In this document: positions 11,751 through 31,406 of the stretch, in pieces
Position numbering within the stretch: the first letter of the stretch is position 1
How the letters are laid out: the number at the start of each line of letters is the position of its first letter
Source of the DNA: Betaproteobacteria bacterium
Lineage (GTDB): Bacteria > Pseudomonadota > Gammaproteobacteria > Burkholderiales > SG8-41
Direction: 5' to 3'
Assembly (NCBI GenBank): GCA_016199545.1
Contig: JACQGN010000334.1
Location: forward strand, 1 to 45,357
DNA: 45,357 nucleotides
Made by a program: the position numbers and the translations under genes
Notes under the pieces: model-generated
Database searches by the model: none
The model's input: the letters and a program-made list of their open reading frames with translations, nothing else
Told to the model about the DNA's origin: nothing

Positions 11751-11846
11751 CTTGCTGATTCGGGCATTCGGCATCTTGTGCAATTAGGGTTTCTTGCCCT
11801 TGGTCGGCGAATCAACTCACACAACCAACCTGTGGTATGGCCGGCA

Positions 11847-12947: not shown

Positions 12948-13977
12948 TTCCCGCTTTGCCCCTCTTTATTTCCGCTCTGATCTCGGGCAGCGTCAAAAGA
13001 AGGCGTTCCACCTGGCGCAAGTTCAGTCGTTGCGTATTGTGGGACGTGTAGTCTTGCGTTTCAGCCTCCTTGCGATCCCCCTCGGTGAAGTACTTCTTGT
13101 AGTCGAGGTCGCGGTCATCCATGCGGACGCGGAAATATCCGCCCAGATCCTCGGCGCGGCGCAGCTCTTCCCTCGTGGCGAGCGTCTCGAACAACTTCTC
13201 GCCATGACGCATCCCGATAACACGAGTCTTGACATTGGAACTGAACAGCCGCTTCAGCGCGCTTCCCAGATCATCGATCGTACACGCCGGCGCTTTCTTG
13301 ATGAAGATGTCGCCCGGGCGCGCAAGCGCGAAGGCGATCATCACCAGCTTGATCGCATCGGAGAGCGGCAGCATGAAACGTGTCATGCCCGGCTCGGTCA
13401 CCGTGAGGGGGGATTGGTCGAGCAGCTGCTTAACGAACAGCGGAATGACCGACCCGCGGGAGTACATCACGTTGCCATACCGTACCGCCGCCACGATAGT
13501 CCCGAAGCCGGTTCTCCGGCGGGACGCCGCCTGTGCGACTTTCTCCATCAGCGCCTTGGTCATTCCCATGGCGTTGATGGGGTGAACGGCTTTGTCGGTG
13601 GACAGGCAGATCACGCGTCTTACCTTGTTCGCGATCGCCGATTCGATGACGTTATGGCTGCCGATCACATTCGTGGAAACCGCCTCCATCGGAAAAAAAT
13701 CGCATGAGGGCACCTGCTTGAGCGCCGCAGCGTGAAATACATAGTCAACATCGGTCATGACCTCGTCCACGCTGTCGCGATCGCGCACATCCCCGATATG
13801 GAACTTGACGCGCGAGTTATCGAGCTCCAGGCGCATCATTTCCTGCTTGAGTTCGTCGCGGCTGAAAATGCGGACTTCCTTGAAACTGACCTTGAGCAGA
13901 TGGGCGAGCAGCGCGTGGCCGAAGGAGCCGGTCCCGCCGGTGATCAGGATGGTCTTGTCTCGAAAATGGTTGGGCAT
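12919..13977 (-). CDS. fnlA: UDP-GlcNAc 4,6-dehydratase/5-epimerase (FnlA/WbjB/CapE-like)
   Basis: 'KTILITGGTGSFGHALLAHLLK', 'STDKAVHPINAMGMTKALMEKV', 'RHGEKLFETL'. Confidence 0.9.
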   Translation of the reverse strand: MPNHFRDKTILITGGTGSFGHALLAHLLKVSFKEVRIFSRDELKQEMMRLELDNSRVKFHIGDVRDRDSVDEVMTDVDYVFHAAALKQVPSCDFFPMEAVSTNVIGSHNVIESAIANKVRRVICLSTDKAVHPINAMGMTKALMEKVAQAASRRRTGFGTIVAAVRYGNVMYSRGSVIPLFVKQLLDQSPLTVTEPGMTRFMLPLSDAIKLVMIAFALARPGDIFIKKAPACTIDDLGSALKRLFSSNVKTRVIGMRHGEKLFETLATREELRRAEDLGGYFRVRMDDRDLDYKKYFTEGDRKEAETQDYTSHNTQRLNLRQVERLLLTLPEIRAEIKRGKAGNATNRRHRR

Positions 13978-14007
13978 GGGGGACAAATCGCCGGGCGGGT
14001 CATTATA

Positions 14008-15240
14008 TCAAGGCAGCCATCGTGTTTCGTCGGGTGTCGACATCAGCTGCTCCAGCCGGTCGAGCAGCTGGTCCCGGGCAAAGTGAGCCTCGTAATAGAG
14101 GCGTCCGCGCATTCCCATCTGTTCGCGGCCAACCTTGGGCATCGCGTAGAGCTCGAGTACCCGCTCGGCTAGTGCGGCAGGTTCCTCGGCGTCACATACG
14201 AGCCCGGCACCGGATTCCCGAATGATGCGTGCCCCTTCGCCATCGAGCATGCCGACGACCGGCCGCCCGCACGCCAGATAGGACTGCAGTTTCCCGGGTA
14301 TCGTGAGCGCGAAGATCGGGTCCCGCTTCAGGCAGACCAGCATCACGTCGGCCTGCATGAACCAGGCGGGCATTGTGGAGAGGGGATGGTTGCCAAACAG
14401 GTGCACGGTTCGCTCCAAGCCGCGATGCTCTATTTCCTGCCTGACCCAGTCGCGCAGCCGACCGTCACCTAATATGATCCACTGAATATCGGAATGAGAC
14501 CTGAGTTGCTCCGCGGCGGCAAGGACGTTGGGAAAGTCTTGCGCCGCGCCGACGTTTCCTGCGTACATGATGCGGAAGCCCGCGGGCAGCGGCATCGGGG
14601 GTGCTAGATCAGCCTGCCGTACCCCGTCGAATATCGGCTCTGCCCAGTTGGGGAAGTACACGATCTTGCGTGCCGCAACTCCCATCCGCACCACGCTCGG
14701 CTCAAAAGCACGCGACTGCACCAGTATCCGGTCGCTGTGCCGGTAAATGCGCTTCACGAGCCACGAAACTGCCCGGATCACGAACCGGCTCCTGATAGCG
14801 CCGGCCGCAGAGAGACTCTCCGGCCACAGATCGAGCACCCACAACAGTACCGGAGACCCGCGCAAGAGCTTCAGCACCAGCGCTGGTAGCGCCACCGTGA
14901 CGGGAGACACCTCATAGACGAAAATGAGGTCGAAATTTCCGCGACACCGAAAGGGCGCGATCAAGCTCGCAAACAGCGCGAACGACAGATAATTAATGGC
15001 AAGGCGGAAGCCGCTTCCGCTCCCGCGGGGAATGAGCGGCACACGGACCACGGGAATACCATCGAAATTATCGGCGCCGCGCTCGATAAAACCATACCCG
15101 GGAAAGAAACGTCCAGCCGGGTAGTTTGGTTTCCCGGTCAGTACGACGACCTCGTGCCTGCGCCCCTTCAGCGCCGTGGCAAGGTCGTTGATCCGGAAAT
15201 TTTCCGGCCAGAAATATTGCGTGACGATCAGGATGCGCAA
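14008..15240 (-). CDS. wbuB: GT4 glycosyltransferase, WbuB-like (putative L-FucNAc transferase)
   Basis: 'MRILIVTQYFWPENFRINDLATALKGRRHEVVVLTGKPNYP', 'LLWVLDLWPESLSAAGAI'; first gene of fnl cassette. Confidence 0.85.
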   Translation of the reverse strand: MRILIVTQYFWPENFRINDLATALKGRRHEVVVLTGKPNYPAGRFFPGYGFIERGADNFDGIPVVRVPLIPRGSGSGFRLAINYLSFALFASLIAPFRCRGNFDLIFVYEVSPVTVALPALVLKLLRGSPVLLWVLDLWPESLSAAGAIRSRFVIRAVSWLVKRIYRHSDRILVQSRAFEPSVVRMGVAARKIVYFPNWAEPIFDGVRQADLAPPMPLPAGFRIMYAGNVGAAQDFPNVLAAAEQLRSHSDIQWIILGDGRLRDWVRQEIEHRGLERTVHLFGNHPLSTMPAWFMQADVMLVCLKRDPIFALTIPGKLQSYLACGRPVVGMLDGEGARIIRESGAGLVCDAEEPAALAERVLELYAMPKVGREQMGMRGRLYYEAHFARDQLLDRLEQLMSTPDETRWLP

Positions 15241-15554
15241 GCGGGACCCCGCGAGCTACAAGTTCCGTTGCTCCGGCAGGCGGCGACGGGATTCAGGGGT
15301 GCGCAATCCAGGCCGGGACCCATTATCGGCCTTGCGGGCAGAGATCCATGCACTGTGCGGCCGGCCCGTCGCCGTAGCCCCTGACGGTCGGGCGCCGCCC
15401 GTGGAATCGTGTGAGCATTGACTGAAGTTTACGACAAGTGACTTTCGATTCGAAGGTCGGCACGATCCGCTTCTGCCCGGAGCTTCCATGCAATCCCTAT
15501 ATAATCGGCGAAGGTTGCCAATGGGTCGAAACGCCTCCGAGGTAAACGCTGACG

Positions 15555-16472
15555 GTGAAAGCACTTTGGGGTTGTCTTAAGTATTTCCCGCCGGGACTTC
15601 TTACCTGGATCAAACAGCACTCCAGTGCGCGTCAGCGTCTCTGGATCCGGGAGACGTTCGGGGGCAGCTACACCAGCATTCCCGACAGGATTCAATCGGT
15701 ACCGGACGGCAGGCGCTTTCGCATCGGACCGGATCTGATTTACTGGCCCATCGATACGGGAGTCGGGTTCGAGCCCGAAGCGACCCATATTTTGCGGCAC
15801 CTGCTGAGGGCGGGTGACGTGAGTGTGGACGTGGGTGCCAACTTCGGGTGGTACACGACTTTGTTTGCGCAGATCTGTCCGCAAGGGCGGGTTTATGCCT
15901 ATGAGCCGGTACCCGAAACCTTCGGGCGCTTGCTTGAAACGCTGGCTCTGAATGACATGCGCGGGAACGTCACGGCACTTCAGGCTGCAGTATCGAATGC
16001 CGCCGGTACCTGCTCGATCTTCACGTTCGAGAAAAGCTCGGCCTATTCGTCCCTGTCGTCCCGCGGCGAGTTCGGAGAGAGAAGTCAAAAAGCCGTCGAG
16101 GTTCCAATGGTTACTCTCGATCAGAACCTTTCCGAACAAGGCGTATCACACGTGGATTTCCTGAAATGCGACACGGAGGGCTCGGAACGCATGGTGCTCC
16201 TGGGGGCACGCCGGTTCCTGGGTGCACCTGACGCGCCGATGATATTCATCGAACTGAATGAGCCCGCGTTCCGCGCGTTCGGCTATGGCAGGGATGACGT
16301 CCGGCAGGTCCTGTGCAGCCATGGATACGATCGGTTCTACGAAATTATTTCCGCACGCGAGTTGCGGTCACTGCACACACCGCAAGCATTCGAGCTGGCG
16401 GGTAGTGCGCTGTGCGCGAAGGGAAGCACCATCGTCGAGCGTTTGGCGGGGACCGATGTCGAAATCCAGTGA
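15555..16472 (+). CDS. FkbM family SAM-dependent methyltransferase
   Basis: 'VSVDVGANFGWYTTLFAQICPQGRVYAYEPVPETF' and 'VDFLKCDTEGSERMVLLGA'. Confidence 0.88.
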   Translation: MKALWGCLKYFPPGLLTWIKQHSSARQRLWIRETFGGSYTSIPDRIQSVPDGRRFRIGPDLIYWPIDTGVGFEPEATHILRHLLRAGDVSVDVGANFGWYTTLFAQICPQGRVYAYEPVPETFGRLLETLALNDMRGNVTALQAAVSNAAGTCSIFTFEKSSAYSSLSSRGEFGERSQKAVEVPMVTLDQNLSEQGVSHVDFLKCDTEGSERMVLLGARRFLGAPDAPMIFIELNEPAFRAFGYGRDDVRQVLCSHGYDRFYEIISARELRSLHTPQAFELAGSALCAKGSTIVERLAGTDVEIQ

Positions 16473-17513: not shown

Positions 17514-18227
17514 TCAACCCGCCTTCCCGGGCCATGGCTTGCGCTGCATCTCCCGGTAGCGTTCAGGTGTCCCGATATCCACCACCTCGGAGTCAACGCG
17601 AAATCCATAACATTTGCCGTCCATTGCAGCACGGGGGAAGACGTCGCGCTCCAGCGAGAACGGCGTTGCGAATTCCCAGGTCAAGGGCAGCGCTTTCCGC
17701 AACAAATAGATGCCGGCGTTGATGAAAAACGTCCTCTGAGCCGCCGCCGGTTTTTCCATGAAACGCAGGATCCGGCCATCCCCAGCGACCTCGACCGCTC
17801 CGGCATCGGTGCGGCCGCGCGAAGCCGCGAGGACCATGGACAGGTCAGCGGGTTTCGATTCGTGGAAGGTGAGAAAATCCTGGAAACGAACCCGGCAAAG
17901 CGAATCGCCATTCAGGACGAGCACCGGGTCGCTTCGAATTAGCCCTGCCGCCGCCTTGAGCGCGCCTCCAGTGCCCAGAGGGACGGTTTCTTCGGAAAAC
18001 ACCAGTTCGGCGTCCTTCCTGGTGCGATAGTGGGCGATGATCTGTTCCCGCAGGTAACCCACGCACAGGATAATGCGCGGGACCTGCTGGGCGACGAGAT
18101 CATCTATGAGCAGGTCGAGGAATGGCCGGCCGTTGATGACGGCCAGGGGCTTCGGCCGCTGCCCTATGACCCCGCTTAATCGCGTGCCGAAACCGCCGGC
18201 AAGCACCATCGCGTCCATTGATTTCAC
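17514..18227 (-). CDS. Sugar-1-phosphate nucleotidyltransferase, HddC-like
   Basis: 'AMVLAGGFGTRLSGVIGQRPKPLAVINGRPFLDLLID', 'PLGTGGALKAAAGLI', 'LNGDSL', 'FINAGIYLL', 'VVDIGTPERYREM'. Confidence 0.85.
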   Translation of the reverse strand: MKSMDAMVLAGGFGTRLSGVIGQRPKPLAVINGRPFLDLLIDDLVAQQVPRIILCVGYLREQIIAHYRTRKDAELVFSEETVPLGTGGALKAAAGLIRSDPVLVLNGDSLCRVRFQDFLTFHESKPADLSMVLAASRGRTDAGAVEVAGDGRILRFMEKPAAAQRTFFINAGIYLLRKALPLTWEFATPFSLERDVFPRAAMDGKCYGFRVDSEVVDIGTPERYREMQRKPWPGKAG

Positions 18228-18301: not shown

Positions 18302-19282
18302 TCATTTCAGTTCCGCTCGCCCAAGCTTTGCAGACTGGCGGTACCACATCAAAGTGCGGCGCAGTCCCTCGCGCATGTCGATGCGGGCACGGAATCCCAA
18401 TAGGCGTTCCGCCTTGCTCGTATCGACAAGCCGCAGCGGAATCATTGTCGGCTTGGTCGTGTCGAACTTGATTCTTGCGTTTTCGTAGCCGTCGAGCTCC
18501 AGCATCATCTTCAGCAGATCATGTACTGAATATCCCTGTCCCAGTCCGATGTTAATGGCCGCGTAACGGTCAAGCCTGGCGGCGGCCAACACCATGGCCT
18601 CCACCATGTCGTCCACGTAGATTGCGTCGCGGACTTCGCTGCCGTCACCCCAGACCTCCAAAGGATCCCAGCGCTCGACAGTCTTGCGGATCAGTGCCGG
18701 AATGACGTGGGACGTTGCCAACTCAAAGTCGTCGTGTGGCCCGTACACATTGGTCGGCCGAAGCACTATCGTTGTCATGGGCTTCGCCAGCTTCTCGCCG
18801 TACATCTGGCAAAGAATCTCCGCAAAACGCTTCGTCCACCCGGCAAAGAAGTACTTGTGAAACGGCTCGCCTGCCAGCAGCTGGTCTTCCGTCATCGGTT
18901 TGTCCGAAACGGGATAGGCCACCGTGCTACCGAGCCAGATAAACTTCTCCACTCCCGCTGCGTAGGCTGCTTCCAGCATCTGGGCGCTGATTAATATGTT
19001 GGGGGTGACGTGGATCATGGGGGTGGCCGAAATCATGGCCGCGCCGGAGGATATGGCCGCGCACAGATAGACGTACTGCATTCCTTCCACGGCGCGTCGG
19101 CAGTCGTCCGCACGAGTGAGGTCGCATTGAAGGTACTCGATGCCGGGGTACCTGATCGCCGGTTCGCTGCGGTGAAGCGTTGCCCGCAGCATGGCGCCCT
19201 CCTTGAACAGGCGCTCGAGGAGATTGCTGCCGATCAAGCCGGTTGCGCCAGTTACCAGGATGCGTTTGTCGGGGAATAGCAT
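18302..19282 (-). CDS. Extended SDR, GDP-fucose synthase (Fcl)-related, noncanonical active site
   Basis: 'KRILVTGATGLIGSNLLERLFKEG', 'VVLRPTNVYGPHDDFELATSHVIPALI' Fcl-like; YFFAGWTK where YxxxK is expected. Confidence 0.8.
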   Translation of the reverse strand: MLFPDKRILVTGATGLIGSNLLERLFKEGAMLRATLHRSEPAIRYPGIEYLQCDLTRADDCRRAVEGMQYVYLCAAISSGAAMISATPMIHVTPNILISAQMLEAAYAAGVEKFIWLGSTVAYPVSDKPMTEDQLLAGEPFHKYFFAGWTKRFAEILCQMYGEKLAKPMTTIVLRPTNVYGPHDDFELATSHVIPALIRKTVERWDPLEVWGDGSEVRDAIYVDDMVEAMVLAAARLDRYAAINIGLGQGYSVHDLLKMMLELDGYENARIKFDTTKPTMIPLRLVDTSKAERLLGFRARIDMREGLRRTLMWYRQSAKLGRAELK

Positions 19283-19306: not shown

Positions 19307-20269
19307 TCAGTTCACGAGAAAGCCGTGCTCGCGATAGATGCCCGCGATCCTGCCGCAAACGGGCTGAGCCAAGCGGCCGAGCCCACTTGCCTCTGAGTTT
19401 TCGATGACATGTTCTGCCTTGAGCATGCCGGGAATCGCGGTCGATACGCAGTCGAACGACAGGCAGAATCGTAGCGCGAACTGGGAAGGCGTTTCCCCGT
19501 TCTTCGAGTCGATCAGCGCGGTGAAGAGATGATGCGCACTCGCCCACCGTTCGAGCTGCCCCGGACTCCAGCGACGGCGGTGATCGGAGGGATCAAAGTC
19601 GGCGGTGGCGGAGTAGCGTCCGGTCAGGAAGCCGAATACGAGCGGTGTGCGCACGATTACCCCGACGTTGCGCCGTGAACAGAGATCGAACAGACCGTTT
19701 TCGACCGCACGCTGGTCCAGCAGATTGAAATTGACTTGCAAGCAATTGAAACCGAGGTCGCGCACTGCTTCAAACCCGTCGTCGGGAGCGCGCAGCGACA
19801 AACCGAAGGCGCGGATCCTGCCCGCCGCTTGCAGCCGCTTGAGCGTGCCTACGATACCGCTGTCCGATTTCAGTAATTCGAGCGGCGGGCTGTGTAGCTG
19901 GTAGAGGTCAACGTAGTCGGTCTGCAGGCGGCGTAGGCTGGCTTCGAGCGAGCGCTCGATGTGCGTCGCTGAAAAATCCTGGTCGCCCGCCGCATTGAGG
20001 AGGCCTACCTTGGTGGCGATCACCACGCTTGATCTGACCGGGCGAAGGGCTCTGCCCAGCACCTCCTCGCTGTGGCCGAATCCGTAGAAGTCCGAGGTAT
20101 CAAAGAAGTTGATCCCGAGCTCGACCGCCCGCAGCAGCGCGTTCCGGGATTCATCCTCGTCAGCCGGCCCGTAGGCGACCGCGCCCTTTGCGTTACCCCC
20201 GATTCCCCAGGCACCGAAACCGATCTCCGACACGCGGATGCCGGTGGCGCCGAGCTCCCGGTAGCGCAT
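19307..20269 (-). CDS. Aldo/keto reductase
   Basis: 'MRYRELGATGIRVSEIGFGAWGIGG', 'FFDTSDFYGFGHSEEVLGRAL', 'DYVDLYQLHSPP'. Confidence 0.93.
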   Translation of the reverse strand: MRYRELGATGIRVSEIGFGAWGIGGNAKGAVAYGPADEDESRNALLRAVELGINFFDTSDFYGFGHSEEVLGRALRPVRSSVVIATKVGLLNAAGDQDFSATHIERSLEASLRRLQTDYVDLYQLHSPPLELLKSDSGIVGTLKRLQAAGRIRAFGLSLRAPDDGFEAVRDLGFNCLQVNFNLLDQRAVENGLFDLCSRRNVGVIVRTPLVFGFLTGRYSATADFDPSDHRRRWSPGQLERWASAHHLFTALIDSKNGETPSQFALRFCLSFDCVSTAIPGMLKAEHVIENSEASGLGRLAQPVCGRIAGIYREHGFLVN

Positions 20270-20273
20270 TCTG

Positions 20274-22340
20274 TCAGTAATGGCCCGCGAGTTCGCGCTC
20301 CACGGTATCGTTGCCGTAGAGGTAGGCGCCCTTCTTGTTGCCGTACCAGATCACCTCCCGGTACCAGTCTTGCCATGAGTGGTAGACGATCCTGGTGCGG
20401 TCGATGCGGTTGACGTGCGCGCGCTCCTCGAGCTGGATCGTCTCGCCGACCAGCACCGAGCGGTAGAATTCCCAAAGGTTGTATGATGTTTCGAACTCGA
20501 GGTTCTCGGTTTGAAACGGAAGCTTGACGAGATTGCGGTTAAGCTCGACCGCTTCGTGAAGCAGCTTGGGCGGAAGCTGTAAGAACCGCGACTTGAGGAA
20601 CCCGGTAAGCAGGGTTTCCGCTTCGCGGTAGAAGCCGGCAAGCTTGTCCTCGACACACAGCTTGATGAGCATGTATTCGTCGGCCGGCCAGTAAATGTCG
20701 AGCCAGGTCGCCGAATGGCAGTACTCCGGCCCGCCGTCCTGGATGTCGCGCGCTTTTGCGATGAAGAAATGCTTGATCTCCGAGATGATCGGAAAGCGCT
20801 CCGCGCGCTCGTCGAGAAAGGCCTCGAACATCTCGCGGTACGACACGCCGCACGCTTCGTGCAAAACGATGAGCGGAATCTGCATGACCTTGTCGAAGTG
20901 CAGGAAGGCCGTCATCCAGCAGAACGTGCGCGTGCGCACCCAGTCCTCTCGCGGCATGGATGCGGTGGCGACCACCAGCTCCTGCATCTCTGATATTTCC
21001 TCCTGCGATTCCGCGAGCGAGCCGTGGATGTTGATGATTGCCGACTCGATGATTTCCATCCCGTATCTCTTCTGATATTCGGGATCGCCCATTTCGGCGT
21101 TGGGTAGGATGGAGAGGTTGTTGAACTGGATGCGGTTGTGCTGGCCGTTATCGATCACGTGCGAGACGCCGTCCGCGAAGGTCTCGTAGGTTTCCCCGGG
21201 AAGGCCGAGGATCAGGTCGGAGTAAGTTTCCACGCGGTCCCGCGTGAAGCGCCGTTGCAGCTCCTGATACGAATCGGTGGAGATGTTCTGACGCTTGATC
21301 GCCTTTAGCGTCTCTGGATCCATCGACTGCAGGGATATCGCTACACCCTTGTTGAGCCCGGCGTCCGACAGGAGTTTTTGCACCTTGTAGGCGCGCTCCG
21401 TGCCGTTCTTGGTATTCTGGACCGAGAGCGCCTTCGGGTAGCCGTGCTTGTGCTTGGTATCGGCCACGTATTGCGTGATGTCGTAGTCGCGGCTCAGCAT
21501 CCCGTAGTTGGCGTCGCAGCAGAAGATGAACTCGACTTTGTTCCGCGCGAACCAGTCCACCTCCTGCAGCAGGCGGTCCATGCCGAACTGGCTCACCTTG
21601 GCGGCGATCGCGGAGCCCCAGTCGCAGAAGGTGCAGGCGAACGGGCAGCCCCGGTTGGTTTCCCACAAGACCAGCCATTTCTCGTCTGGGTTGGCCTGCA
21701 TCAGCGGTTCGAACACCGTCCCGAGATAGGGCGAGGGGATGACCGCAATGTCCTTCAGCCGCTCGGCGCGCAGGTTGTGTACGAATGTTCCATCGCGACG
21801 CAGATAACTGATCGAGGGGACACCATCCCACGTGCGCGAGGGGAAGTTCTCCAGGATGCCGAGGAAGATCGGCTCGCCTTCCCCGTGTACCGCGAGATCA
21901 ATGAACGGATTCGCACGCAGGAACTGCTCCGCGCGATCGGGCACCTGCGGCCCGCCGAACACGATCAGCGTTTCAGGTTGAAGCTGCTTGACCTGGCGCG
22001 CGATCTCCAGGGAGATGCGGATGTTCCAGACATAGGTGCTGAACCCGATCACGCCTACGCCAAGCACTTGCTCGACGGCGCGTTTCAGGGGGATGCGGGA
22101 GTAGATCGGCAGCGGGAACGTGTAGCGCCCGGGGTGTTTCGCATACGCCTGCACGTAGGCCTGCAGCAGACCGGCGGCATACGGCAGGTAATTCTGCCCG
22201 GAAAAACTGTTGTTGATCTGGACCAGCCCGACCGTGAGCGGATCGCGGTTCTCGACCGGTACGGGGATCGTGCCCACTGCCTGCTGCCGGATGACGCCGT
22301 GTTCGGTGAGCCGGTGGTGGAGCTTCTGGATATTGCTCAT
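20274..22340 (-). CDS. B12-binding-type radical SAM protein (688 aa)
   Basis: N-terminal B12-binding-like domain ('VGVIGFSTYVWNIRISLEIARQVKQLQPETLIVFGGPQVP...LAVHGEGEPIF'), radical SAM CxxxCxxC 'NRGCPFACTFCDWG', long C-terminal domain. Confidence 0.92.
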   Translation of the reverse strand: MSNIQKLHHRLTEHGVIRQQAVGTIPVPVENRDPLTVGLVQINNSFSGQNYLPYAAGLLQAYVQAYAKHPGRYTFPLPIYSRIPLKRAVEQVLGVGVIGFSTYVWNIRISLEIARQVKQLQPETLIVFGGPQVPDRAEQFLRANPFIDLAVHGEGEPIFLGILENFPSRTWDGVPSISYLRRDGTFVHNLRAERLKDIAVIPSPYLGTVFEPLMQANPDEKWLVLWETNRGCPFACTFCDWGSAIAAKVSQFGMDRLLQEVDWFARNKVEFIFCCDANYGMLSRDYDITQYVADTKHKHGYPKALSVQNTKNGTERAYKVQKLLSDAGLNKGVAISLQSMDPETLKAIKRQNISTDSYQELQRRFTRDRVETYSDLILGLPGETYETFADGVSHVIDNGQHNRIQFNNLSILPNAEMGDPEYQKRYGMEIIESAIINIHGSLAESQEEISEMQELVVATASMPREDWVRTRTFCWMTAFLHFDKVMQIPLIVLHEACGVSYREMFEAFLDERAERFPIISEIKHFFIAKARDIQDGGPEYCHSATWLDIYWPADEYMLIKLCVEDKLAGFYREAETLLTGFLKSRFLQLPPKLLHEAVELNRNLVKLPFQTENLEFETSYNLWEFYRSVLVGETIQLEERAHVNRIDRTRIVYHSWQDWYREVIWYGNKKGAYLYGNDTVERELAGHY

Positions 22341-22435: not shown

Positions 22436-23476
22436 TCAGCCACCATGGTCCTGGTGATAATAGACGATCTGCGAGCCGAGGAAGTCGAAATGCACCGGCA
22501 CATGAAGCAGCGACTGCAATGCGGCTTTGATCGCGGGTTGATGCTCGGGTGACGCGAAGAACATCATGAAGCCGCCGCCGCCTGCACCCAGCAACTTGCC
22601 GCCGAGGGCACCCGCTTTCATTCCGGCCTGGTAGATCGCGTCGATACCGGAGTTGGTGATCTGCGAGGACATGCCGCGCTTGATTTGCCACTGCTCGTGG
22701 AGCAACCGCCCGAAGTCCTCGATCCGGTCGCGGTTGTCGAGCAGCGCGGCCTCGGCCTGGTCCACGAGCTGCATCATTTGCCGCAGATCAGTCTTCTTGC
22801 TGGGGATGTTCTCGATCTGTGCCTTGGCGATTTCCGACGCGGTGCGCGCCTGGCCAGTGAAGAACAGCATGATGTGCTGCCGCAACCGTTCCATCTTCTC
22901 CGGTGGAAGAATGAGCGGCTTGACGAGGATTTCGTGCATGCCGCCGAAATCCACGCGATTAAAGCCGCCAAACGCCGCGCTGGTCTGGTCCTGTGAGCCG
23001 ACGCTCTCGTTGATCAGGTCCTGTTCGACGTGGATCGCATTTATGGCCAGCTGGCGCTTGCTTGGCATCTCGTGCTTGAGTGCGTACAGCGCATGAAGCA
23101 GGCCGACGGTGAACGTCGAGCTCGATCCAAGCCCGGATCGCGCCGGCACATCCGCGTGGTGCACGATATCCACGCCGCCATCGAGCTCCATGAACCTGAG
23201 GCAGGCGCGCACTGCGGGGTGCTGGATTTCCTCTATCGTCTGCGCCTCCTCGCGTTTGTAGTAGCGGATCAGATATTTGAACGCATGGAACGGAGGCAGG
23301 TAGCGACAGGTGATGTAGCAGTACTTGTTGATCGCGGCCGACAGCACGGCACCGCCGTGCTCGCGGTACCATGCGGGATAGTCGGTGCCGCCGCCGAAAA
23401 AAGACACCCTGAACGGTGTTCTGCTGATGATCACGGTTTCGTTCCAGGAGTTGCCAGGCCGCCAGTCGTTGCTCAA
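22436..23476 (-). CDS. GHMP family sugar-1-kinase, HddA-like
   Basis: 'IISRTPFRVSFFGGGTDYPAWYREHGGAVLSAAINKYCYI', 'ARSGLGSSSTFTVGLLHAL', 'GGKLLGAGGGGFMMFF'. Confidence 0.9.
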   Translation of the reverse strand: MSNDWRPGNSWNETVIISRTPFRVSFFGGGTDYPAWYREHGGAVLSAAINKYCYITCRYLPPFHAFKYLIRYYKREEAQTIEEIQHPAVRACLRFMELDGGVDIVHHADVPARSGLGSSSTFTVGLLHALYALKHEMPSKRQLAINAIHVEQDLINESVGSQDQTSAAFGGFNRVDFGGMHEILVKPLILPPEKMERLRQHIMLFFTGQARTASEIAKAQIENIPSKKTDLRQMMQLVDQAEAALLDNRDRIEDFGRLLHEQWQIKRGMSSQITNSGIDAIYQAGMKAGALGGKLLGAGGGGFMMFFASPEHQPAIKAALQSLLHVPVHFDFLGSQIVYYHQDHGG

Positions 23477-23988
23477 TCCACGAAATGACCGAGCTCGTCA
23501 CGCCGGGAAAGAATGGGGTGCTTTACCGGCCACCACATCTTGAATCGCGGATCGTTCCAGGTGTAGGTGAACTGGCCCTTGGGATTGTAGTAGGTGCTCT
23601 GCTTGTAGTGAAAGATCGCCTGGTCGCTCAGTACGACGTGCCCGTTGCCGTACTTGGGCGGCACCAGAACCTGCAGGCGGTTAACATCGGATAGCGTAAA
23701 CGCTTGCCACTTCCCGAATTCCTTCGATTGTTCGTCGCCATTTACGACCATCAGGTAGAACTTGCCGTAGAGACAGGAAATGAGCTTCCAGGTTTCCGCG
23801 TCCCCGTGAATGCCGCGCAGCACGTGGCGCGAAGACACCGAGATGTCGTCCTGTACGAACTTAACGGTAATCCCGTGCTCGTGATAGAGCTTCTCGTTGT
23901 AGGTCTCGACGTACTGCCCGCGGAAATCCTCGAACACTTCGAGGTTGATCAGCAGCACGCCATCAAGTTTGGTCTTGCTGACTTGCAT
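23473..23988 (-). CDS. dTDP-4-dehydrorhamnose 3,5-epimerase-like (RmlC-fold) sugar epimerase
   Basis: 'FEDFRGQYVETYNEKLYHE...VKFVQDDISVSSRHVLRGIHGDAETWKLISCLYGKFYLMVVN', 'LVPPKYGNGHVVLSD'. Confidence 0.85.
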   Translation of the reverse strand: MQVSKTKLDGVLLINLEVFEDFRGQYVETYNEKLYHEHGITVKFVQDDISVSSRHVLRGIHGDAETWKLISCLYGKFYLMVVNGDEQSKEFGKWQAFTLSDVNRLQVLVPPKYGNGHVVLSDQAIFHYKQSTYYNPKGQFTYTWNDPRFKMWWPVKHPILSRRDELGHFVD

Positions 23989-24049: not shown

Positions 24050-24973
24050 TCAGGCGGGTTTCCATACCACGAACGAGTAGCCTTCGTGGTAAAGACTGCC
24101 GAAAAACATGCGCCTGACTTCGAGGATCCTGATTTTCCCCTCGGTTTCGAGCGCCTTGAGGCGCGGCAGGAAGCCTGAGAGATAGCCGCGTTTGCGATGA
24201 TACCTGAGCGCGAGATAATCGGCCAGATTACCCTCATCATAGAGGTCCTCGATGGGTTCCATGTTGATGCAGATCTGCGGCCGTTTCTCAAGCAGGAACT
24301 CAATAAAGGGGCCATGGCGCGGACCCACCTGTTCAAGCGCGCACAGGCTCATGACAGCGCTGTGTGGGTCGAGCCTGAGTTCACGGTCCGGATTGAAGAA
24401 ATCGAACCGGATTCCCGCGATGTCGAGATCGTGCTTCTCCCCGATAAGATTGACCATCTTGCACGCCGACTGCGACCAGTCCAGCCCATACAGCTTCAGG
24501 TTCGGAATCTGCTTTCCCAACGCCACCAGATTGAAGCCTGTTCCGCAGCCGAACTCATATGCCGAGCAAACATCCCGGAAGTATTTCTGGAAGTAGAAGG
24601 CGCGGCATACCTGGAAGAAAGCGAGCTCGAAAGAAGGGTTGCGCGGCAGAACGTAACGCTGGTCAAGCCGGGCGGGCTGGCCCGGCTTAATGAACTTCGG
24701 CACCAGCGCCTCGAGTTGGAACTCGGAAGCGACGAAGTTCTCCAGGTTCTCTCCCCAGCACCGCTCCCACACGCCCGCGCGCTGCTGGCCCACCTGGGTC
24801 GGCGCGTCAGAGTCGACGTGCTTGATGACGCCGAGAACGATCTCGTCGCGCCGTTGCGGCGAAGGCTCCTCGTACGTGAAGTCCACGTTCTCGATCAGCC
24901 CCCGGCACGTTTCGGGTAGTGCACCCGGCGCTACCCCGAGGGTCCGGGCGAAGTCCGTCTCGGAATGTTCCAT
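24050..24973 (-). CDS. SAM-dependent methyltransferase-like protein (class I)
   Basis: 'SAYEFGCGTGFNLVALGKQIPNLKLYGLDWSQSA' motif I; C-terminal 'HEGYSFVVWKP'. Confidence 0.75.
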   Translation of the reverse strand: MEHSETDFARTLGVAPGALPETCRGLIENVDFTYEEPSPQRRDEIVLGVIKHVDSDAPTQVGQQRAGVWERCWGENLENFVASEFQLEALVPKFIKPGQPARLDQRYVLPRNPSFELAFFQVCRAFYFQKYFRDVCSAYEFGCGTGFNLVALGKQIPNLKLYGLDWSQSACKMVNLIGEKHDLDIAGIRFDFFNPDRELRLDPHSAVMSLCALEQVGPRHGPFIEFLLEKRPQICINMEPIEDLYDEGNLADYLALRYHRKRGYLSGFLPRLKALETEGKIRILEVRRMFFGSLYHEGYSFVVWKPA

Positions 24974-24978
24974 GCCGG

Positions 24979-26022
24979 TCAGAACGGGCCTTTGAACTTG
25001 TTTTCGTAGCTGTAAAAGTCCTCGTGCGAGAGGTCAGTTTCCGAAAGCTTGAGCATCGCTTCAACGGCCCGGATGATGCTCACTGCATTGGGATAGAACT
25101 CGTTCTCGAGGGGCCGCGCGCAGGGGCAGGGCGTAGGCGCAAACCCGATGCGGCGGATCGGGGCCCGAAGCTGACCCATGCAGGCTTCGTAGACCGTCGC
25201 CGCCACTTCCGCGCTGAATCCGCAATGGGTCCAGTCATTGTCGGCGACGATGCAATGGCGGGTCCTTTGCACGGAGTCGATGATCGTCTGGCAGTCGAAC
25301 GGCGAAATCGAGCGGACGTCAACCACTTCCACGCCCACCCCGCGCTTTTTCAGGATTTCGGCCGCCTTGACCGCCTCGACATTCATCCACGAGGTTGCGA
25401 CCACTGTAATGTCGCTGCCCGGGTGTATCACCTTCGCGCCGTCGAGTCGTATCTCGTCGCTATGTTCGGGCACCTCGCCCACGACGTCGTAGAGCCAGCG
25501 GTGCTCGATGAAAATCACGGGATTGTCGTCGCGGATCGCCGCCACCAGCATGCCCTTGGCGTCCCGCGGCGTGGAAGGCATGACCACTTTCAGGCCGGGA
25601 ATATGGGCGAACCACGACTGCAGCGTCTTGCTGTGCTGGAATGACTGTCCCCAGCCGCGTCCAATGATGGCGCGGATCACCATCGGCACGGCGAACCTGC
25701 CGCCGGAGCCGTAACGCTGGGTGGCGATCATGTTGACCAGCTGGTTCAGGCCGAGGAGCAGGAAGTCCACCCGCATGTGCACGTGGATCGGCCGCATGCC
25801 GGCGATTGCCGCGCCGAGCCCGAATCCCGTCATGGCGTCTTCGGCGAGCGGCGTGCTGAAACAGCGATCCAGGCCGAATTCCTCGACCAGCCCCTTGGAA
25901 CTCATGAAGGTGCGTTTGTGATCGGCCACGTCGATGCCGTAGACGAAGACCCGCGGGTCGCGGCGCATTTCCTGCGCCATGGCTTCGTTCAGAGCCTCCC
26001 TGTAGGACATCAGCCGGCTCAT
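24979..26022 (-). CDS. TPP-dependent dehydrogenase/transketolase-like E1 component, beta subunit
   Basis: 'FSTPLAEDAMTGFGLGAAIAGMRPIHVHMRVDFLLLGLNQLVN', 'FQHSKTLQSWFAHIPGLKVVMPSTPRDAKGMLVAAIRDDNPVIFIEH'. Confidence 0.93.
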   Translation of the reverse strand: MSRLMSYREALNEAMAQEMRRDPRVFVYGIDVADHKRTFMSSKGLVEEFGLDRCFSTPLAEDAMTGFGLGAAIAGMRPIHVHMRVDFLLLGLNQLVNMIATQRYGSGGRFAVPMVIRAIIGRGWGQSFQHSKTLQSWFAHIPGLKVVMPSTPRDAKGMLVAAIRDDNPVIFIEHRWLYDVVGEVPEHSDEIRLDGAKVIHPGSDITVVATSWMNVEAVKAAEILKKRGVGVEVVDVRSISPFDCQTIIDSVQRTRHCIVADNDWTHCGFSAEVAATVYEACMGQLRAPIRRIGFAPTPCPCARPLENEFYPNAVSIIRAVEAMLKLSETDLSHEDFYSYENKFKGPF

Positions 26023-26978
26023 GCGAGAACATCCTCGTAGAGGGCTTGCGGCTGGCTGAACTGCGCCTCGTCCGCGCGCTTAATGCTGCCCTCGACCTGT
26101 TCGTCGATGGTCCGCTCGATTGCCGTAATTTCTCCTTCCGAAAACCATTTCCCGAGCTTTTTGCGCTGGAGCTCTACTGGGTCGGCCTTGCGCCATCTTT
26201 CAAACTCCGCCCGGTCGCGATAGCCGGAGTTGAAATCCTCGTTGGTGCCGACGTGCTCGAGGTAACGGTAATAGGCAAGACGAAGGAATGATGGCTGCTG
26301 ATATTTGTTCATCGCTCCGATCGCCTGCAGCGCGAGGTTGTAGACGGCTTCAGGGTCGGTGGTCTCTGACGAGAAAACGTTACAGTTGAATTGCCTGACG
26401 ATTTCGATGATGGATTTGTAACCGTGCCGCTGTTCGGCGGGAACGTGCACGGCGAGACCGTTGTCCTCGTACACGAACAGCACCGGCAGCTTCATGACGC
26501 ACGCCGAGTTGAGCGATTCCCAGAACACGCCTTCGTCCACCGCCCCGTCGCCGAAGAACACGGCGACGACCTTGCCGTTTTTCTGCATCTTGTTGGCATA
26601 GGCGGCGCCCACCGCCACGGGTATCGTCGTGCCCACGATCGCCGACGTGCAGATCAGGCCGTGATCGACGGCTGTCAGGTGCATCGAGCCGCCTTTGCCC
26701 TTGGCCACGCCGGTGGCCTTGCCGTACATCTCGGCAAAGAACGCATCGGTCTCGCTGGTTTTGGCGAGGTAGATGCCGTGGCTGCGGTAGGTGCCGAGGA
26801 TCTGGTCCTGCGGGCGTAGCGCCTGGCACACGCCCGCAGCGATCGCCTCCCCGCCCGTGGACATGTGCATCGGCGTTTTCATCTTGTCGCTGGCGTAGTC
26901 CGCGCGGATCGCGGCCTCCGCCCGCCGTATCAGGTAGGCCTTTTGGTAAAGGTACCGGTTGAGTTCTTTCTCTTTCAT
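26019..26978 (-). CDS. TPP-dependent dehydrogenase E1 component, alpha subunit
   Basis: TPP motif 'FFGDGAVDEGVFWESLNSACVMKLPVLFVYEDN', 'KGKGGSMHL'; ATG overlaps Nudix stop (ATGA). Confidence 0.93.
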   Translation of the reverse strand: MKEKELNRYLYQKAYLIRRAEAAIRADYASDKMKTPMHMSTGGEAIAAGVCQALRPQDQILGTYRSHGIYLAKTSETDAFFAEMYGKATGVAKGKGGSMHLTAVDHGLICTSAIVGTTIPVAVGAAYANKMQKNGKVVAVFFGDGAVDEGVFWESLNSACVMKLPVLFVYEDNGLAVHVPAEQRHGYKSIIEIVRQFNCNVFSSETTDPEAVYNLALQAIGAMNKYQQPSFLRLAYYRYLEHVGTNEDFNSGYRDRAEFERWRKADPVELQRKKLGKWFSEGEITAIERTIDEQVEGSIKRADEAQFSQPQALYEDVLA

Positions 26979-27580
26979 TTGGCTTTGGGCCTGCATTCAG
27001 GGAATCTGGACAACAGGTAGCTTGCGATTACCGCTACCGGCAATGCGACGTAAATACCGCCCTCGGTGATGAGCTCTACCACCTGGGTAAGCGGTACGCA
27101 GTGTACGCTCTCGACTTCACTGTCGTGCGGCTTGCGCCGCTCGAATTCCTGAAGCGAGAGGTCTACACGGAACACGTAAACCAGCTTCGGCACCCGGTTT
27201 GGCGATGTTGACATCGGTGCCATCGCCCTGAATCGTGCTTCAGGGATCGCGATGCCGGTCTCCTCGGCGAATTCACGCGCCGCGCCTGCAACCGGCAATT
27301 CGCCGTCTTCGATGGCGCCCGCCGGCAGCTCGAGCGTGGTGTCGCCGATGACGGGGCGCTTCGCCCGTATCATCACGATGCCGGCGTCTTCGACCACCGG
27401 CAGCACGATAACCTGGGACGAATGATATTCAGTGGTGTAGTATCCGCCGCGGTCGCGCACGGTAAACCACTCGTTTTCGTGCAGCGTGGTGACGGGTGTG
27501 AGCCCCGGACAGGCGATGGCGGTCAGCCGCGCGTCCCAGTCTCCATGCGGCGGATAGGAAACGGGATTGGCGAGCCTCAC
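26975..27580 (-). CDS. Nudix hydrolase
   Basis: Perfect Nudix box 'GAIEDGELPVAGAAREFAEETGI' (GX5EX7REUXEEXGU); GTG start 2 nt after upstream stop. Confidence 0.9.
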   Translation of the reverse strand: MRLANPVSYPPHGDWDARLTAIACPGLTPVTTLHENEWFTVRDRGGYYTTEYHSSQVIVLPVVEDAGIVMIRAKRPVIGDTTLELPAGAIEDGELPVAGAAREFAEETGIAIPEARFRAMAPMSTSPNRVPKLVYVFRVDLSLQEFERRKPHDSEVESVHCVPLTQVVELITEGGIYVALPVAVIASYLLSRFPECRPKAK

Positions 27581-27581
27581 T

Positions 27582-28592
27582 TTACCGGACAAGAAATACT
27601 TCTCCCGCCCGCACCCGTTGGCGCCAGTAGTCAAGCAGATCCTGCATCGTCCGTTCGAACGGGATCTGCGGTTCCCAGCCGGTGTGTTTCTGGAATTTCC
27701 GGGTGTCCGGCACCTGCAGGTCGGCATCGATGGGGCGCAGCCGCCCTGCATCGGTCTCGACTTTGAGGTCCTTGCGCTCGCAAAGCGACATGAGGTGCTT
27801 GAGCATCTCGCCGATGGTACAGGAGTAACGCCCTCCGATATTGTAGTACTCCCCGGGCACGGGGTTCACGGTGAGCAGAATGTGATAGGCGCGCACGGCA
27901 TCGCGCACGTCCGACCACGTGCGCAGCGATTCGAGATTGCCGACCTTGATTACGGGCGGAATCATGCCGCGCTCAATCATGGCGATCTGCTTGGAAAACG
28001 TGGATTCCGCGAAAACGTCGCCGCGCCGCGGGCCGGTATGAGTGAACATTCGTGTCGTCAGGACTTTCTGGCCGTAGGCCTCGGCGTGGAAGCGGCCAAC
28101 CAGGTCGGTTCCGACTTTCGAGATCGCGTAAGGGGAAGCCGGGTGAAACGTGCATTCCTCGCTGATCGGCACCTTCTCCCGGGGAACCCGGCCGTACACC
28201 TCGGACGAGGAACACACGTGGATTACTGGATCAACGCCGGGAAGCCGCCGCAATGCTTCCAGCACGCGCTCGGTGCCTTGGATATTGGTGTCGTAGGTGT
28301 CAAGCGGAGAGGCAAAACTCGTTGTCGGATAGCTTTGGGCTGCCAAATGAAAAACGTAATCGGGCATTGCCTGCTCGACCACGTTCTGGATCGAGATGTA
28401 GTCCCGTAGATCGCCGTACAAAAAGAAAACGCGATCGCGCCGGTTGGCCCGCTCGAGCAGATGCTTGACGTTGTCGAGCGCGCTGCGCCAGCGGCACATG
28501 CCGTAGATATCCCAATCGGTGTGCTCGAGCAGGTAATCGGCAAGGTGAGAGCCGACCATGCCCGAGATACCGGTGATCAAGGCTCTTTTCAT
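27582..28592 (-). CDS. GDP-mannose 4,6-dehydratase-like (Gmd family) SDR
   Basis: 'MKRALITGISGMVGSHLADYLLE', 'SSSEVYGRVP', 'YAISKVGTDLVGRFHAEAYGQ', 'HTGPRRGDVFAESTFSKQIAMIE'. Confidence 0.85.
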   Translation of the reverse strand: MKRALITGISGMVGSHLADYLLEHTDWDIYGMCRWRSALDNVKHLLERANRRDRVFFLYGDLRDYISIQNVVEQAMPDYVFHLAAQSYPTTSFASPLDTYDTNIQGTERVLEALRRLPGVDPVIHVCSSSEVYGRVPREKVPISEECTFHPASPYAISKVGTDLVGRFHAEAYGQKVLTTRMFTHTGPRRGDVFAESTFSKQIAMIERGMIPPVIKVGNLESLRTWSDVRDAVRAYHILLTVNPVPGEYYNIGGRYSCTIGEMLKHLMSLCERKDLKVETDAGRLRPIDADLQVPDTRKFQKHTGWEPQIPFERTMQDLLDYWRQRVRAGEVFLVR

Positions 28593-28919
28593 TGCCATCG
28601 AGGGTCTTTGCTGCTGCCGTTGCGTATTCACGCTCGGGCGGGCGGGGGGAACAGAAGCCTCATTTTACGATAATCGACCACTGTTTCCAATGCTTCGGCT
28701 TCCCAATCGATGCCGCGTGCATTAATATTCGACTCGGCGCAAACAAGAACCGCCTCGCTCCCGCAGTCGTCTGACTCACGCGGACGCGATCAACCCCGGT
28801 GCCTGTATGCAAGCGCCATCGGCGCTACGCGCCGGGAGCGGTATGGCACGACGCGGTGTTATCGGCGAATTGCCAGTTCGCATGCACGGATTCTGGATAG
28901 CTTGGGCGGGCCCGCTGTT

Positions 28920-31406
28920 GTGACAGAGCAACCTCTCGTATCAATTCTCTCTTTTTGCAAGGATCGCGCCTCGACGATACGACGCAGCATCGAGAGCGTC
29001 TTGAGCCAGTCCTATCGCAACATCGAGTTCGTGGTCCAGGATGGCGCCTCGACCGACGGCACCGTCGAAATCCTGAAAAGTTACAACGACCCCAGGATCA
29101 AGGTCATTTCCGAACACGACACCGGGCCTGCCGAGGGGTTCTGGAAGGTGATGAACCGTTGCGAGGGCGAGTTTATCGGGACCTGCCTGTCGGACGAGGA
29201 ACTGGTGCCAGGCGCGATCGAGAAGGCGGTGGCGTACTTACGGGAGCACGCCGATGTCGGCGCACTCACGTGCGACGGCTGGGTCACCGACGCGAACGGG
29301 AAGATCATTGACGAGTTCAATGCGGGCGACTTCAACCTCGTGGATTATCTATTCGGGAAGTACTGTCCGTTCTGGCCGGGCAGTTTTTTCCGCAGGCAGG
29401 CGCTTCTCGACGTCGGCCTGAAAACCCACGACTGGACCATCGAATGCCTTGAGTTCGAGACTTGGTGCCGGCTCGGCGCCCAGCATGTCGTCAAACACGA
29501 GCCGATTCGGATGTCGAAATATGCGGTGCACGAAGGGCAGCTCAGCAACACGCGGCAGTACTTTCACGAGCACTTCGACAATCGCGCCAGGGTGATCCGC
29601 GCGATGTTCTCGGCGCCGGGCTTCTTCGGCGAGGATGAAATCAAGCTCAACGGCTGCCTGTACAACCAGCTTTACCTCCTTTACAACCACGTCCGGGCGC
29701 ACCGGCTGGCCGACCAGGAGAGTTTGCTCCTGGAGCGGATCAGGCAGGTGAAGTCCAGCATTCCAGTACTGGACCGCGTGGGCTATCGCGAATACTTCAA
29801 CTTCCTGGACGGGACGCGAAGGGGCTGGAGTTCGGCGGGCGAGGGTTCAGCAGTTATCCGCAGGATACGGGGAATCTGGGTGAAGATCGCGCTCACCATT
29901 CCGTCCTCGGTCCGCCAGCGTCTTCCGACGCGTGCCAAGGAATCGGTGCGCAAGATTTTCACGACCCTGCTGCATCTTGCCATCACGACTAAGGCATCTC
30001 TCGGACAAATCGTCCGGAACCGGCGAGGGCCTGCAGAAGAAGCCGTACCGGTCGCCGTCGAGCCGGAGTTCTCGCCCCTGCTCTACCACGATGTGGCGGC
30101 GCTCTACTACGCGCGCGGCCAGATTTACCAGGCGTTGGAGAACTGGAAGAAAGCGGAGGCGCTTGACGACGCGACGATAGACGGCCTCGCGTGCCAGGCG
30201 AGGCTCATGCTGCCGGAAGCCACGTACGAGACCCTGCTTGAAGGCCAGCGGCGGTGGGCGGAGAAGCACGCCAACCCGATACCGTCGCTGCCCGGGATTT
30301 CGGTCCGGCCGTACGACCGCAAGCGGAAGATACGGGTGGGATATTTCTCGTCCTTTGCGGAAAGCTACGTCATGCGGGTAATCGTGCTTTCGGTCTTGAA
30401 GCACGTCAACCGCGAAAGATTCGAGATCTTCGGCTACGCCCCGAGCCTGGCGCCCGCTGATGTCGAGGCGCATTTCGACCGGTTCGTCACGACCGGGGCC
30501 GCTTCGGACCGGGAATTTGTCGAGCTCGTCCGCTCCGACCAGGTTGATATCTTTATCGAGACGACGGGTTTCTCTCCGTTCAATCGATTCGCCGCAATGG
30601 CGTCCCGGTGCGCCCCCATCCAGATCTCATATCTGAACCACACGGGCACCAGCGCGGTGCCGAACGTTGATTATGTTCTCGCCGACGGGATCTCCGTCTT
30701 GCCGGGCGAGGACCAGTGGTTCACGGAGAAGGTCTGGCGCCTGCCGGGCAGTTTTCTCTGCTACAACTACGACGATTTCGCGATGCCGCCCGTGGCCGAG
30801 CGCCCGAGTAAGAGCCGAGGCTATGTCACCTTCGGCTGCTTCGGCAGCGGCGGCAAGATCGGGGACGCACTGGTAGCCCTCTGGGCCGAGATTCTCAAGA
30901 GAGCGCCAGGCTCGATGTTGTTCTTGCGAAATAGGCAGCTGACTCCCGACGACAATCGGCAGTTCATGATTGACCGCTTCCGCCGACACGGCATTGAGAA
31001 GGGCCGCTTGAGGCTGATGGGAGGCGCCAGCCATGCGACCCTACTGAAATCCTATGACGGGGTGGATATCAGCCTCGACACGTGGCCCTACTGCGGAGGC
31101 AATACGATCGCAGAGCCGATATGGCAGGGCGTTCCGGTCGTTACCCTCAGAGGAAATCGGTTCTCGGGCCGTTACGGAGCCTCCCTGGTGGCGGCAAGCG
31201 GCTGTCCGGAGCTTATTGGGACAACACCCGACGAATATGTGAATCTTGCGGTCCGCTTGAGCGAGCAGCCGGACAGACTCGACTATTATCGGGCCAACCT
31301 GCGGAAGCTGTCCCGTGAATCCAGCTTAGTTGACGCCAAGCGATTTGCGCGCAACCTTTCCGCCGCGTTCGTGGAGATGATGAATATTCTGCACCGGACG
31401 CGGTAA
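28920..31406 (+). CDS. Fusion protein: N-terminal GT2 glycosyltransferase + C-terminal GT41 (O-GlcNAc transferase/SPINDLY-like) domain
   Basis: GT2 'VSILSFCKDRASTIRRSIESVLSQSYRNIEFVVQDGASTDGTVEIL'; GT41 'RCAPIQISYLNHTGTSAVPNVDYVLAD', 'WFTEKVWRLPGSF', 'YVTFGCFGSGGKIGDALVALWAEILKRAPGS', 'DISLDTWPYCGGNTIAEPIWQGVPVVTLRGNRFSGRYGASLVAASGCPELI'; GTG start proposed. Confidence 0.9.
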   Translation: MTEQPLVSILSFCKDRASTIRRSIESVLSQSYRNIEFVVQDGASTDGTVEILKSYNDPRIKVISEHDTGPAEGFWKVMNRCEGEFIGTCLSDEELVPGAIEKAVAYLREHADVGALTCDGWVTDANGKIIDEFNAGDFNLVDYLFGKYCPFWPGSFFRRQALLDVGLKTHDWTIECLEFETWCRLGAQHVVKHEPIRMSKYAVHEGQLSNTRQYFHEHFDNRARVIRAMFSAPGFFGEDEIKLNGCLYNQLYLLYNHVRAHRLADQESLLLERIRQVKSSIPVLDRVGYREYFNFLDGTRRGWSSAGEGSAVIRRIRGIWVKIALTIPSSVRQRLPTRAKESVRKIFTTLLHLAITTKASLGQIVRNRRGPAEEAVPVAVEPEFSPLLYHDVAALYYARGQIYQALENWKKAEALDDATIDGLACQARLMLPEATYETLLEGQRRWAEKHANPIPSLPGISVRPYDRKRKIRVGYFSSFAESYVMRVIVLSVLKHVNRERFEIFGYAPSLAPADVEAHFDRFVTTGAASDREFVELVRSDQVDIFIETTGFSPFNRFAAMASRCAPIQISYLNHTGTSAVPNVDYVLADGISVLPGEDQWFTEKVWRLPGSFLCYNYDDFAMPPVAERPSKSRGYVTFGCFGSGGKIGDALVALWAEILKRAPGSMLFLRNRQLTPDDNRQFMIDRFRRHGIEKGRLRLMGGASHATLLKSYDGVDISLDTWPYCGGNTIAEPIWQGVPVVTLRGNRFSGRYGASLVAASGCPELIGTTPDEYVNLAVRLSEQPDRLDYYRANLRKLSRESSLVDAKRFARNLSAAFVEMMNILHRTR

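Follow-up and report, generated by a model that had tools for sequence, protein, structure and literature searches.

A predicted E2-independent E1-type carboligase in a GDP-heptose-type operon of a betaproteobacterium

E1-like protein pairs add two-carbon branches to keto sugars using pyruvate (PMC12247030; PMC4425429). AviB1/AviB2 (AAK83190/AAK83191), Pau11/Pau12, KbDH, and the kosinostatin and aldgamycin enzymes (alpha-keto acid dehydrogenase 2 pairs) each place E1 alpha and beta subunits in a deoxysugar pathway. In known E1-type branching the two-carbon unit goes onto C3 or C4, and ketone carboligation has been observed in vitro for KbDH (PMC12247030). YerE, of yersiniose synthesis, is likewise ThDP-dependent and adds a two-carbon branch to a 4-keto nucleotide sugar destined for a surface polysaccharide (PMC12247030), but it is a single chain of the decarboxylase superfamily, whereas the enzyme described here is of the two-subunit E1 type. 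A 2025 review places E1-type enzymes mainly in specialised metabolites and YerE-like enzymes in LPS (PMC12247030). The remainder of our locus resembles the DdahA/B/C and WcbK pathways, which also comprise a dehydratase, an RmlC-like epimerase, an Fcl-like reductase, a heptose kinase and a nucleotidyltransferase; in Campylobacter, DdahA, DdahB and DdahC convert the heptose to a 4-keto form, epimerise it and then reduce it (PMC7949155). No ThDP enzyme is described for these pathways, however, and their products are unbranched 6-deoxyheptoses (PMC7949155). Our search of the open-access literature turned up no account of an E1-type enzyme branching a heptose, and no link to the Coxiella O-antigen as a precedent.

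We analyzed a 45,357-nucleotide stretch of DNA from a betaproteobacterium (the window), in which an E1 alpha/beta gene pair lies inside a nucleotide-sugar operon; the pair, its motifs and the operon genes given below are all on the minus strand. The E1 beta-like subunit of the predicted ThDP-dependent carboligase (24979..26022, 347 aa) contains Transket_pyr (4e-36) and Transketolase_C (2e-32) Pfam domains, and the E1 alpha-like subunit (26019..26996, 325 aa) contains E1_dh (PF00676, 2e-50), while all matches of the pair to the NCBIfam PDH E1 models fall under the cut-off. These are thus two genes with E1_dh and transketolase-type domains and not an acetolactate-synthase-type single chain of the YerE kind. 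An alternative start of alpha at 26978, the boundary chosen in an earlier note on this DNA, is an ATG that overlaps the Nudix stop codon as ATGA and is plausibly the translationally coupled start. The pair is close in length to Pau11 (325 aa) and Pau12 (345 aa). Both genes are real and intact, and the motifs that the earlier note had quoted are present as given, namely GDGAVDEG...YEDN in alpha and TPLAED and QHS in beta. The ThDP/Mg motif GDG...N of alpha (G149-N179, 26460..26552) is invariant in a seven-sequence alignment. In beta, the ThDP-activating Glu61 (TPLAE, 25840..25842) and the catalytic His130 (QHS, 25633..25635) align with E59 and H128 of Bacillus stearothermophilus E1 beta, and both are invariant among 112 homologues. 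The domains and ThDP catalytic residues are those of the alpha2beta2 E1 of PDH and BCKDH, from which the window pair differs in having no E2/E3 partners, a C-terminal extension of beta and other residues in the active region.

Since the domains and catalytic residues are identical in kind, and the genome does hold E2 and E3 genes elsewhere, the pair might serve as E1 in an ordinary dehydrogenase complex, for a 2-oxo acid or acetoin, with distant partners. Several lines of evidence make this reading very improbable. No E2 adjoins the pair, and the E2 and E3 proteins of the same genome, used as queries, have 0 matches in the window, bearing out what had been noticed from the letters alone. The same-genome queries also returned 0 E2/E3 matches across 37 listed orthologous loci, whereas E2 was found in six control loci that served as a positive control. 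Searched by protein family, the genome has five PF00676 matches, the window's included; its three E2 genes lie on C95, C144 and C173, none of which is the window contig; as the assembly is 78.7% complete in 349 contigs, absence of an E2 elsewhere is not absolute. C95 and C144 each carry another complete E1 pair beside their E2 (L015 and L016, respectively), and the third E2 shares contig C173 with an E1-family gene and an E3-like gene.

Phylogeny also separates the pair from dehydrogenase E1s. To place it, we drew on 400 genomes of an actinobacterial family resembling Streptomyces and chose E1 pairs by gene context; these presumed-Streptomyces pairs stand in for AviB1/B2 and Pau11/12, whose own sequences are not in the tree, and their genus is judged from the deoxysugar genes, among others. 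Two of them (L180 and L183) have an NDP-hexose 2,3-dehydratase and a DegT aminotransferase as neighbours, the L180 and L177 pairs adjoin a MocA-type oxidoreductase, and the L186 and L188 pairs adjoin RmlC. Two pairs on named Streptomyces plasmids (L101 and L105) group among the stand-ins. Concatenated alpha and beta trees were built from 95 pairs, with the beta tail removed beforehand, and then, with more care, from 46. The window pair and the Streptomyces deoxysugar-cluster pairs form one superclade with support of 100/100; although certain rows deviate in letter composition, the dividing branch is long and recurs. None of the nine pairs that adjoin an E2 or lipoyl gene in the 46-pair tree falls inside the superclade, nor does a small actinobacterial clade with one member beside a ketosynthase. 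Because the pair groups with the deoxysugar pairs and not with E2-linked E1s, orthology to a dehydrogenase complex is not what the tree shows. The earlier note had called for a comparison with acetoin and pyruvate dehydrogenase E1 and AviB1/B2; ours, with E2-linked E1s and the AviB1/B2 stand-ins, places the pair with the latter. Within the superclade, the window clade (100/100) is distinct from the Streptomyces clade (100/100); AviB1/B2-type pairs belong to antibiotic clusters and act on hexoses or pentoses, while the window pair has its own supported clade, GDP-heptose genes and surface-glycan-type loci. One superclade member on a Streptomyces griseofuscus plasmid (L101, pSGRIFU1, 13986-16032) has a GPY tail and, in place of sugar genes, has condensation-domain, acyl carrier and ketosynthase genes nearby, so carboligases acting on other acceptors may also belong to the superclade.

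The same division is visible at individual residues of beta, which are missing in dehydrogenase E1s. H82-x-R84 (25771..25779) is diagnostic of the carboligase superclade, being present in 96/96 superclade sequences and in 0/14 of the E2-linked set, of which 12 have an E2 or lipoyl gene on the contig and two (L182 and L191) were included by clade position. In the GRGWG motif (residues 121-125, 25648..25662), R122 and W124 occur in 94-98% of the superclade and 0% of the E2-linked set, and R175 and D34, together with these two, also split the groups fully or nearly. Beta ends in Gly-Pro-Phe (24982..24990), at the close of a C-terminal extension of about 20 residues; a GP[FY] terminus is found in 88/96 superclade betas and 0/14 E2-linked ones. 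The HxR motif and GP[FY] tail are both common to the window pair and the Streptomyces deoxysugar-cluster pairs. H82 and R84 would lie beside the active-site strand near the substrate channel, as judged from the alignment, and may have a role in acceptor binding. In our model of the beta monomer the body is confident, but the C-terminal GPF has a pLDDT below 50 and the placement of the tail is not shown by the model. We dropped the idea that the window protein has lost an E2-contact residue named in the B. stearothermophilus E1 beta, as the residue numbering did not match the chain. Together, the tree, the diagnostic residues and the absence of E2 lead us to reject an E1 of an energy-metabolism complex, and the reading of the pair as an E2-independent carboligase of a nucleotide-sugar pathway is well supported by these sequence comparisons.

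The operon runs in the order dehydratase, Nudix, E1 alpha, E1 beta, methyltransferase, RmlC-like epimerase, kinase, radical SAM, aldo/keto reductase (AKR), Fcl-like SDR and nucleotidyltransferase; the spacing between genes ranges from -22 to +95 bases (computed with a Nudix start of 27583; the GTG is at 27580). The Nudix and methyltransferase genes that had been seen to flank the pair are both present by Pfam. The Nudix hydrolase (26975..27580) likely starts at the GTG at 27580, after the dehydratase stop, and the longer listed ORF, to 27751, is too long. The class I SAM methyltransferase (24050..24973; Pfam, fold search and a model of pLDDT 92) lies directly downstream of E1 beta, a position kept in related loci. 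Counts in a promoter and terminator scan were not above those of shuffled sequence. Elsewhere in the window, a second nucleotide-sugar set (9622-13986) with Polysacc_synt_2, Polysacc_synt_C and UDP-GlcNAc 2-epimerase families looks like a pathway to UDP-N-acetyl-fucosamine, and an 898-aa ORF (28710-31406), transcribed away from the operon, joins GT2-type and GT41-type glycosyltransferase domains.

Several of the operon genes point to a heptose as the acceptor. The predicted source of the 4-keto acceptor is a DdahA/WcbK-like GDP-D-glycero-D-manno-heptose 4,6-dehydratase (27582..28631), whose best solved match is the enzyme of that name, 7us5, at 359 bits versus 140 for the E. coli GDP-mannose dehydratase 1db3; a profile of 14 clade members again ranks 7us5 first. 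These solved-structure comparisons disfavour GDP-mannose as its substrate. The RmlC-like 3,5-epimerase (23473..23988) best matches 8db5, a GDP-4-keto-heptose 3,5-epimerase, and the GHMP-type, HddA/WcbL-like heptose kinase (22436..23476) best matches the heptose kinases 3k85 and 4usk, with the NCBIfam HddA match under the cut-off. The HddC/WcbM-like sugar-1-phosphate nucleotidyltransferase (17514..18227) has 6jq8 and 5xhw, of the 6-deoxy-D-mannoheptose pathway, among its top solved matches, alongside mannose-1-phosphate guanylyltransferases. A GmhA candidate, under the model cut-off, is found elsewhere in the genome. Because the dehydratase, kinase and epimerase best match heptose enzymes and the top matches of the nucleotidyltransferase include heptose-pathway proteins, the acceptor is most likely GDP-6-deoxy-4-keto-heptose. 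The earlier proposal of a carboligase acting in a nucleotide-sugar pathway without an E2 therefore stands, but its acceptor, a GDP-4-keto-6-deoxy-hexose, gives way to a heptose as the more likely sugar.

We propose that the pair, presumably an alpha2beta2 E1-type ThDP enzyme, would function without E2 and E3 to decarboxylate a 2-keto acid, most likely pyruvate, and form hydroxyethyl-ThDP. The hydroxyethyl carbanion would then attack the C4 ketone of free GDP-6-deoxy-4-keto-heptose supplied by the DdahA-like dehydratase, giving GDP-4-C-acetyl-6-deoxyheptose with a tertiary alcohol (acceptor + 44.03 Da), which could be tailored by epimerisation, methylation and reduction and built into a surface glycan. 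On the gene content and alignments, we consider this transfer of a pyruvate-derived two-carbon unit to C4 of the heptose probable. An unlikely but substantive alternative is a pathway carboligase with another acceptor or geometry: it might ligate at C3 or at the carbonyl of a side chain, use a glycosyl-linked sugar, or lengthen the chain instead of branching it. Aldgamycins and kibdelomycin are branched at C3 (PMC12247030), post-glycosylation branching has been proposed for avilamycin and paulomycin (PMC4425429), and four related loci hold a second distinct E1 pair. In addition, the operon encodes an Fcl-like SDR, a probable C4 reductase (18302..19282), which could use up the 4-keto intermediate, so branching could occur at another carbon or intermediate. 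Against this, a 4-keto-forming dehydratase directly adjoins the pair in many loci. The donor might also differ from pyruvate, being 2-oxobutyrate, a hydroxy keto acid or, as for transketolase, a ketose. YerE relatives do take varied keto acids (PMC12247030), and the superclade-specific H82 and R84 appear from the alignment to lie near the substrate channel; however, known E1-like sugar-branching pairs are described as two-carbon-branch specialists (PMC12247030), and eight related loci hold a full separate split transketolase that would cover hydroxyacetyl transfer, which leaves a donor other than pyruvate improbable.

Reduction of the new side chain had been assigned to the operon's AKR (19307..20269; Pfam, co-occurrence). 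In the paulomycin cluster, Pau11/12 do have an AKR of their own, Pau7, by which the acetyl branch is reduced (PMC4753412, PMC4425429). Our comparison makes the assignment doubtful here. An AKR is present in 5/37 listed loci, each time with a B12 radical-SAM gene (p = 5e-5), and because of this constant co-occurrence it more likely serves the radical SAM step. In the window that enzyme is a B12-binding radical SAM protein of the KedN5-like C-methyltransferase family (20274..22340; NCBIfam, under the cut-off). The two genes (window 19307-22340) travel together in 5/5 AKR loci and may constitute a separate tailoring module. A FabG-like SDR is commoner (13/37 listed loci), and none was seen in the window.

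The operon is not confined to this genome. A beta-alignment scan of 85,488 species genomes gave two sharp tiers, with at least 37 loci at 57-72% identity and then a fall to 43-52%. Among the matches listed, members of the tight tier come from about 20 phylum-level groups, including Elusimicrobia, Deltaproteobacteria/Myxococcota, Omnitrophota, Nitrospina, Planctomycetes, Chloroflexi, Verrucomicrobia, Marinimicrobia, a betaproteobacterium, many candidate-phyla-radiation lineages, and Thermoplasmata and Nanoarchaeota archaea; nearly all of these genomes are metagenome-assembled, and individual taxon assignments may be wrong. The best alpha matches in 250 genomes of the window's own order, its own genome aside, reach 38-41% identity. 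Cultured relatives carrying a pair include Azospirillum lipoferum 4B (L102) and Solidesulfovibrio magneticus RS-1 (L104). Recurrence of the same operon in divergent sequences argues for its horizontal transfer. At least one heptose-pathway gene occurs in 30/37 listed loci, with the dehydratase in 21, the heptose kinase in 23 and RmlC in 11, and with GmhA, HddC and HddC-GmhB fusions present too; the other seven have no recognised heptose gene, several being on short contigs. In 11/37 the dehydratase gene immediately precedes that for E1 alpha, and the heptose kinase frequency compares with 1/43 in second-tier (sister) loci (p = 1.6e-9).

Related loci show further variety. A 20.3-kb IMG/VR phage contig (L197) with a major head protein carries Fcl, RmlC, Fcl, dehydratase, heptose kinase, E1 alpha, E1 beta and methyltransferase genes within about 8 kb, and a 47.9-kb phage contig (L198) with UvsX-, SbcC/SbcD- and DNA polymerase-like genes has a related heptose operon. 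The second E1 alpha/beta pair, in L025, L047, L048 and L052, is 41-43% identical to the window beta and has its own clade, which suggests two carboligation steps in one pathway. The split transketolase pairs lie within the same operons (L021, L022, L031, L033, L035, L043, L048 and L049), while as sugar-branching candidates split transketolases have been listed from Streptomycetes only (PMC12247030). Sister E1 pairs of the second tier (L056-L097) accompany GmhA-like, HldE-like and 4,6-dehydratase-like SDR genes, with an acetolactate-synthase-like enzyme as well in eight loci, and apparently belong to a parallel heptose-type pathway. In the window's order, E1 pairs of four loci (L011-L014) lie next to a radical SAM gene and, in most cases, the gene of a conserved protein of about 463 aa; a flagellin-like gene near one of them (L013:16989-18485) hints at flagellin glycosylation.

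It is possible, and we suggest it tentatively, that undescribed, nine-carbon C2-branched heptoses made by dedicated E1-type carboligases form a widespread, mobile surface-glycan unit of uncultured bacteria (including the candidate phyla radiation), some archaea and phages, with two carboligases in some loci. If so, E1-type branching would reach both surface glycans and heptoses in many phyla and some phages. Where loci of this kind hold an E1 pair annotated as pyruvate dehydrogenase, the pair should not be read as energy metabolism. The locus also yields a testable enzyme, a sequence signature for further finds and a source of tertiary-alcohol-forming carboligases.
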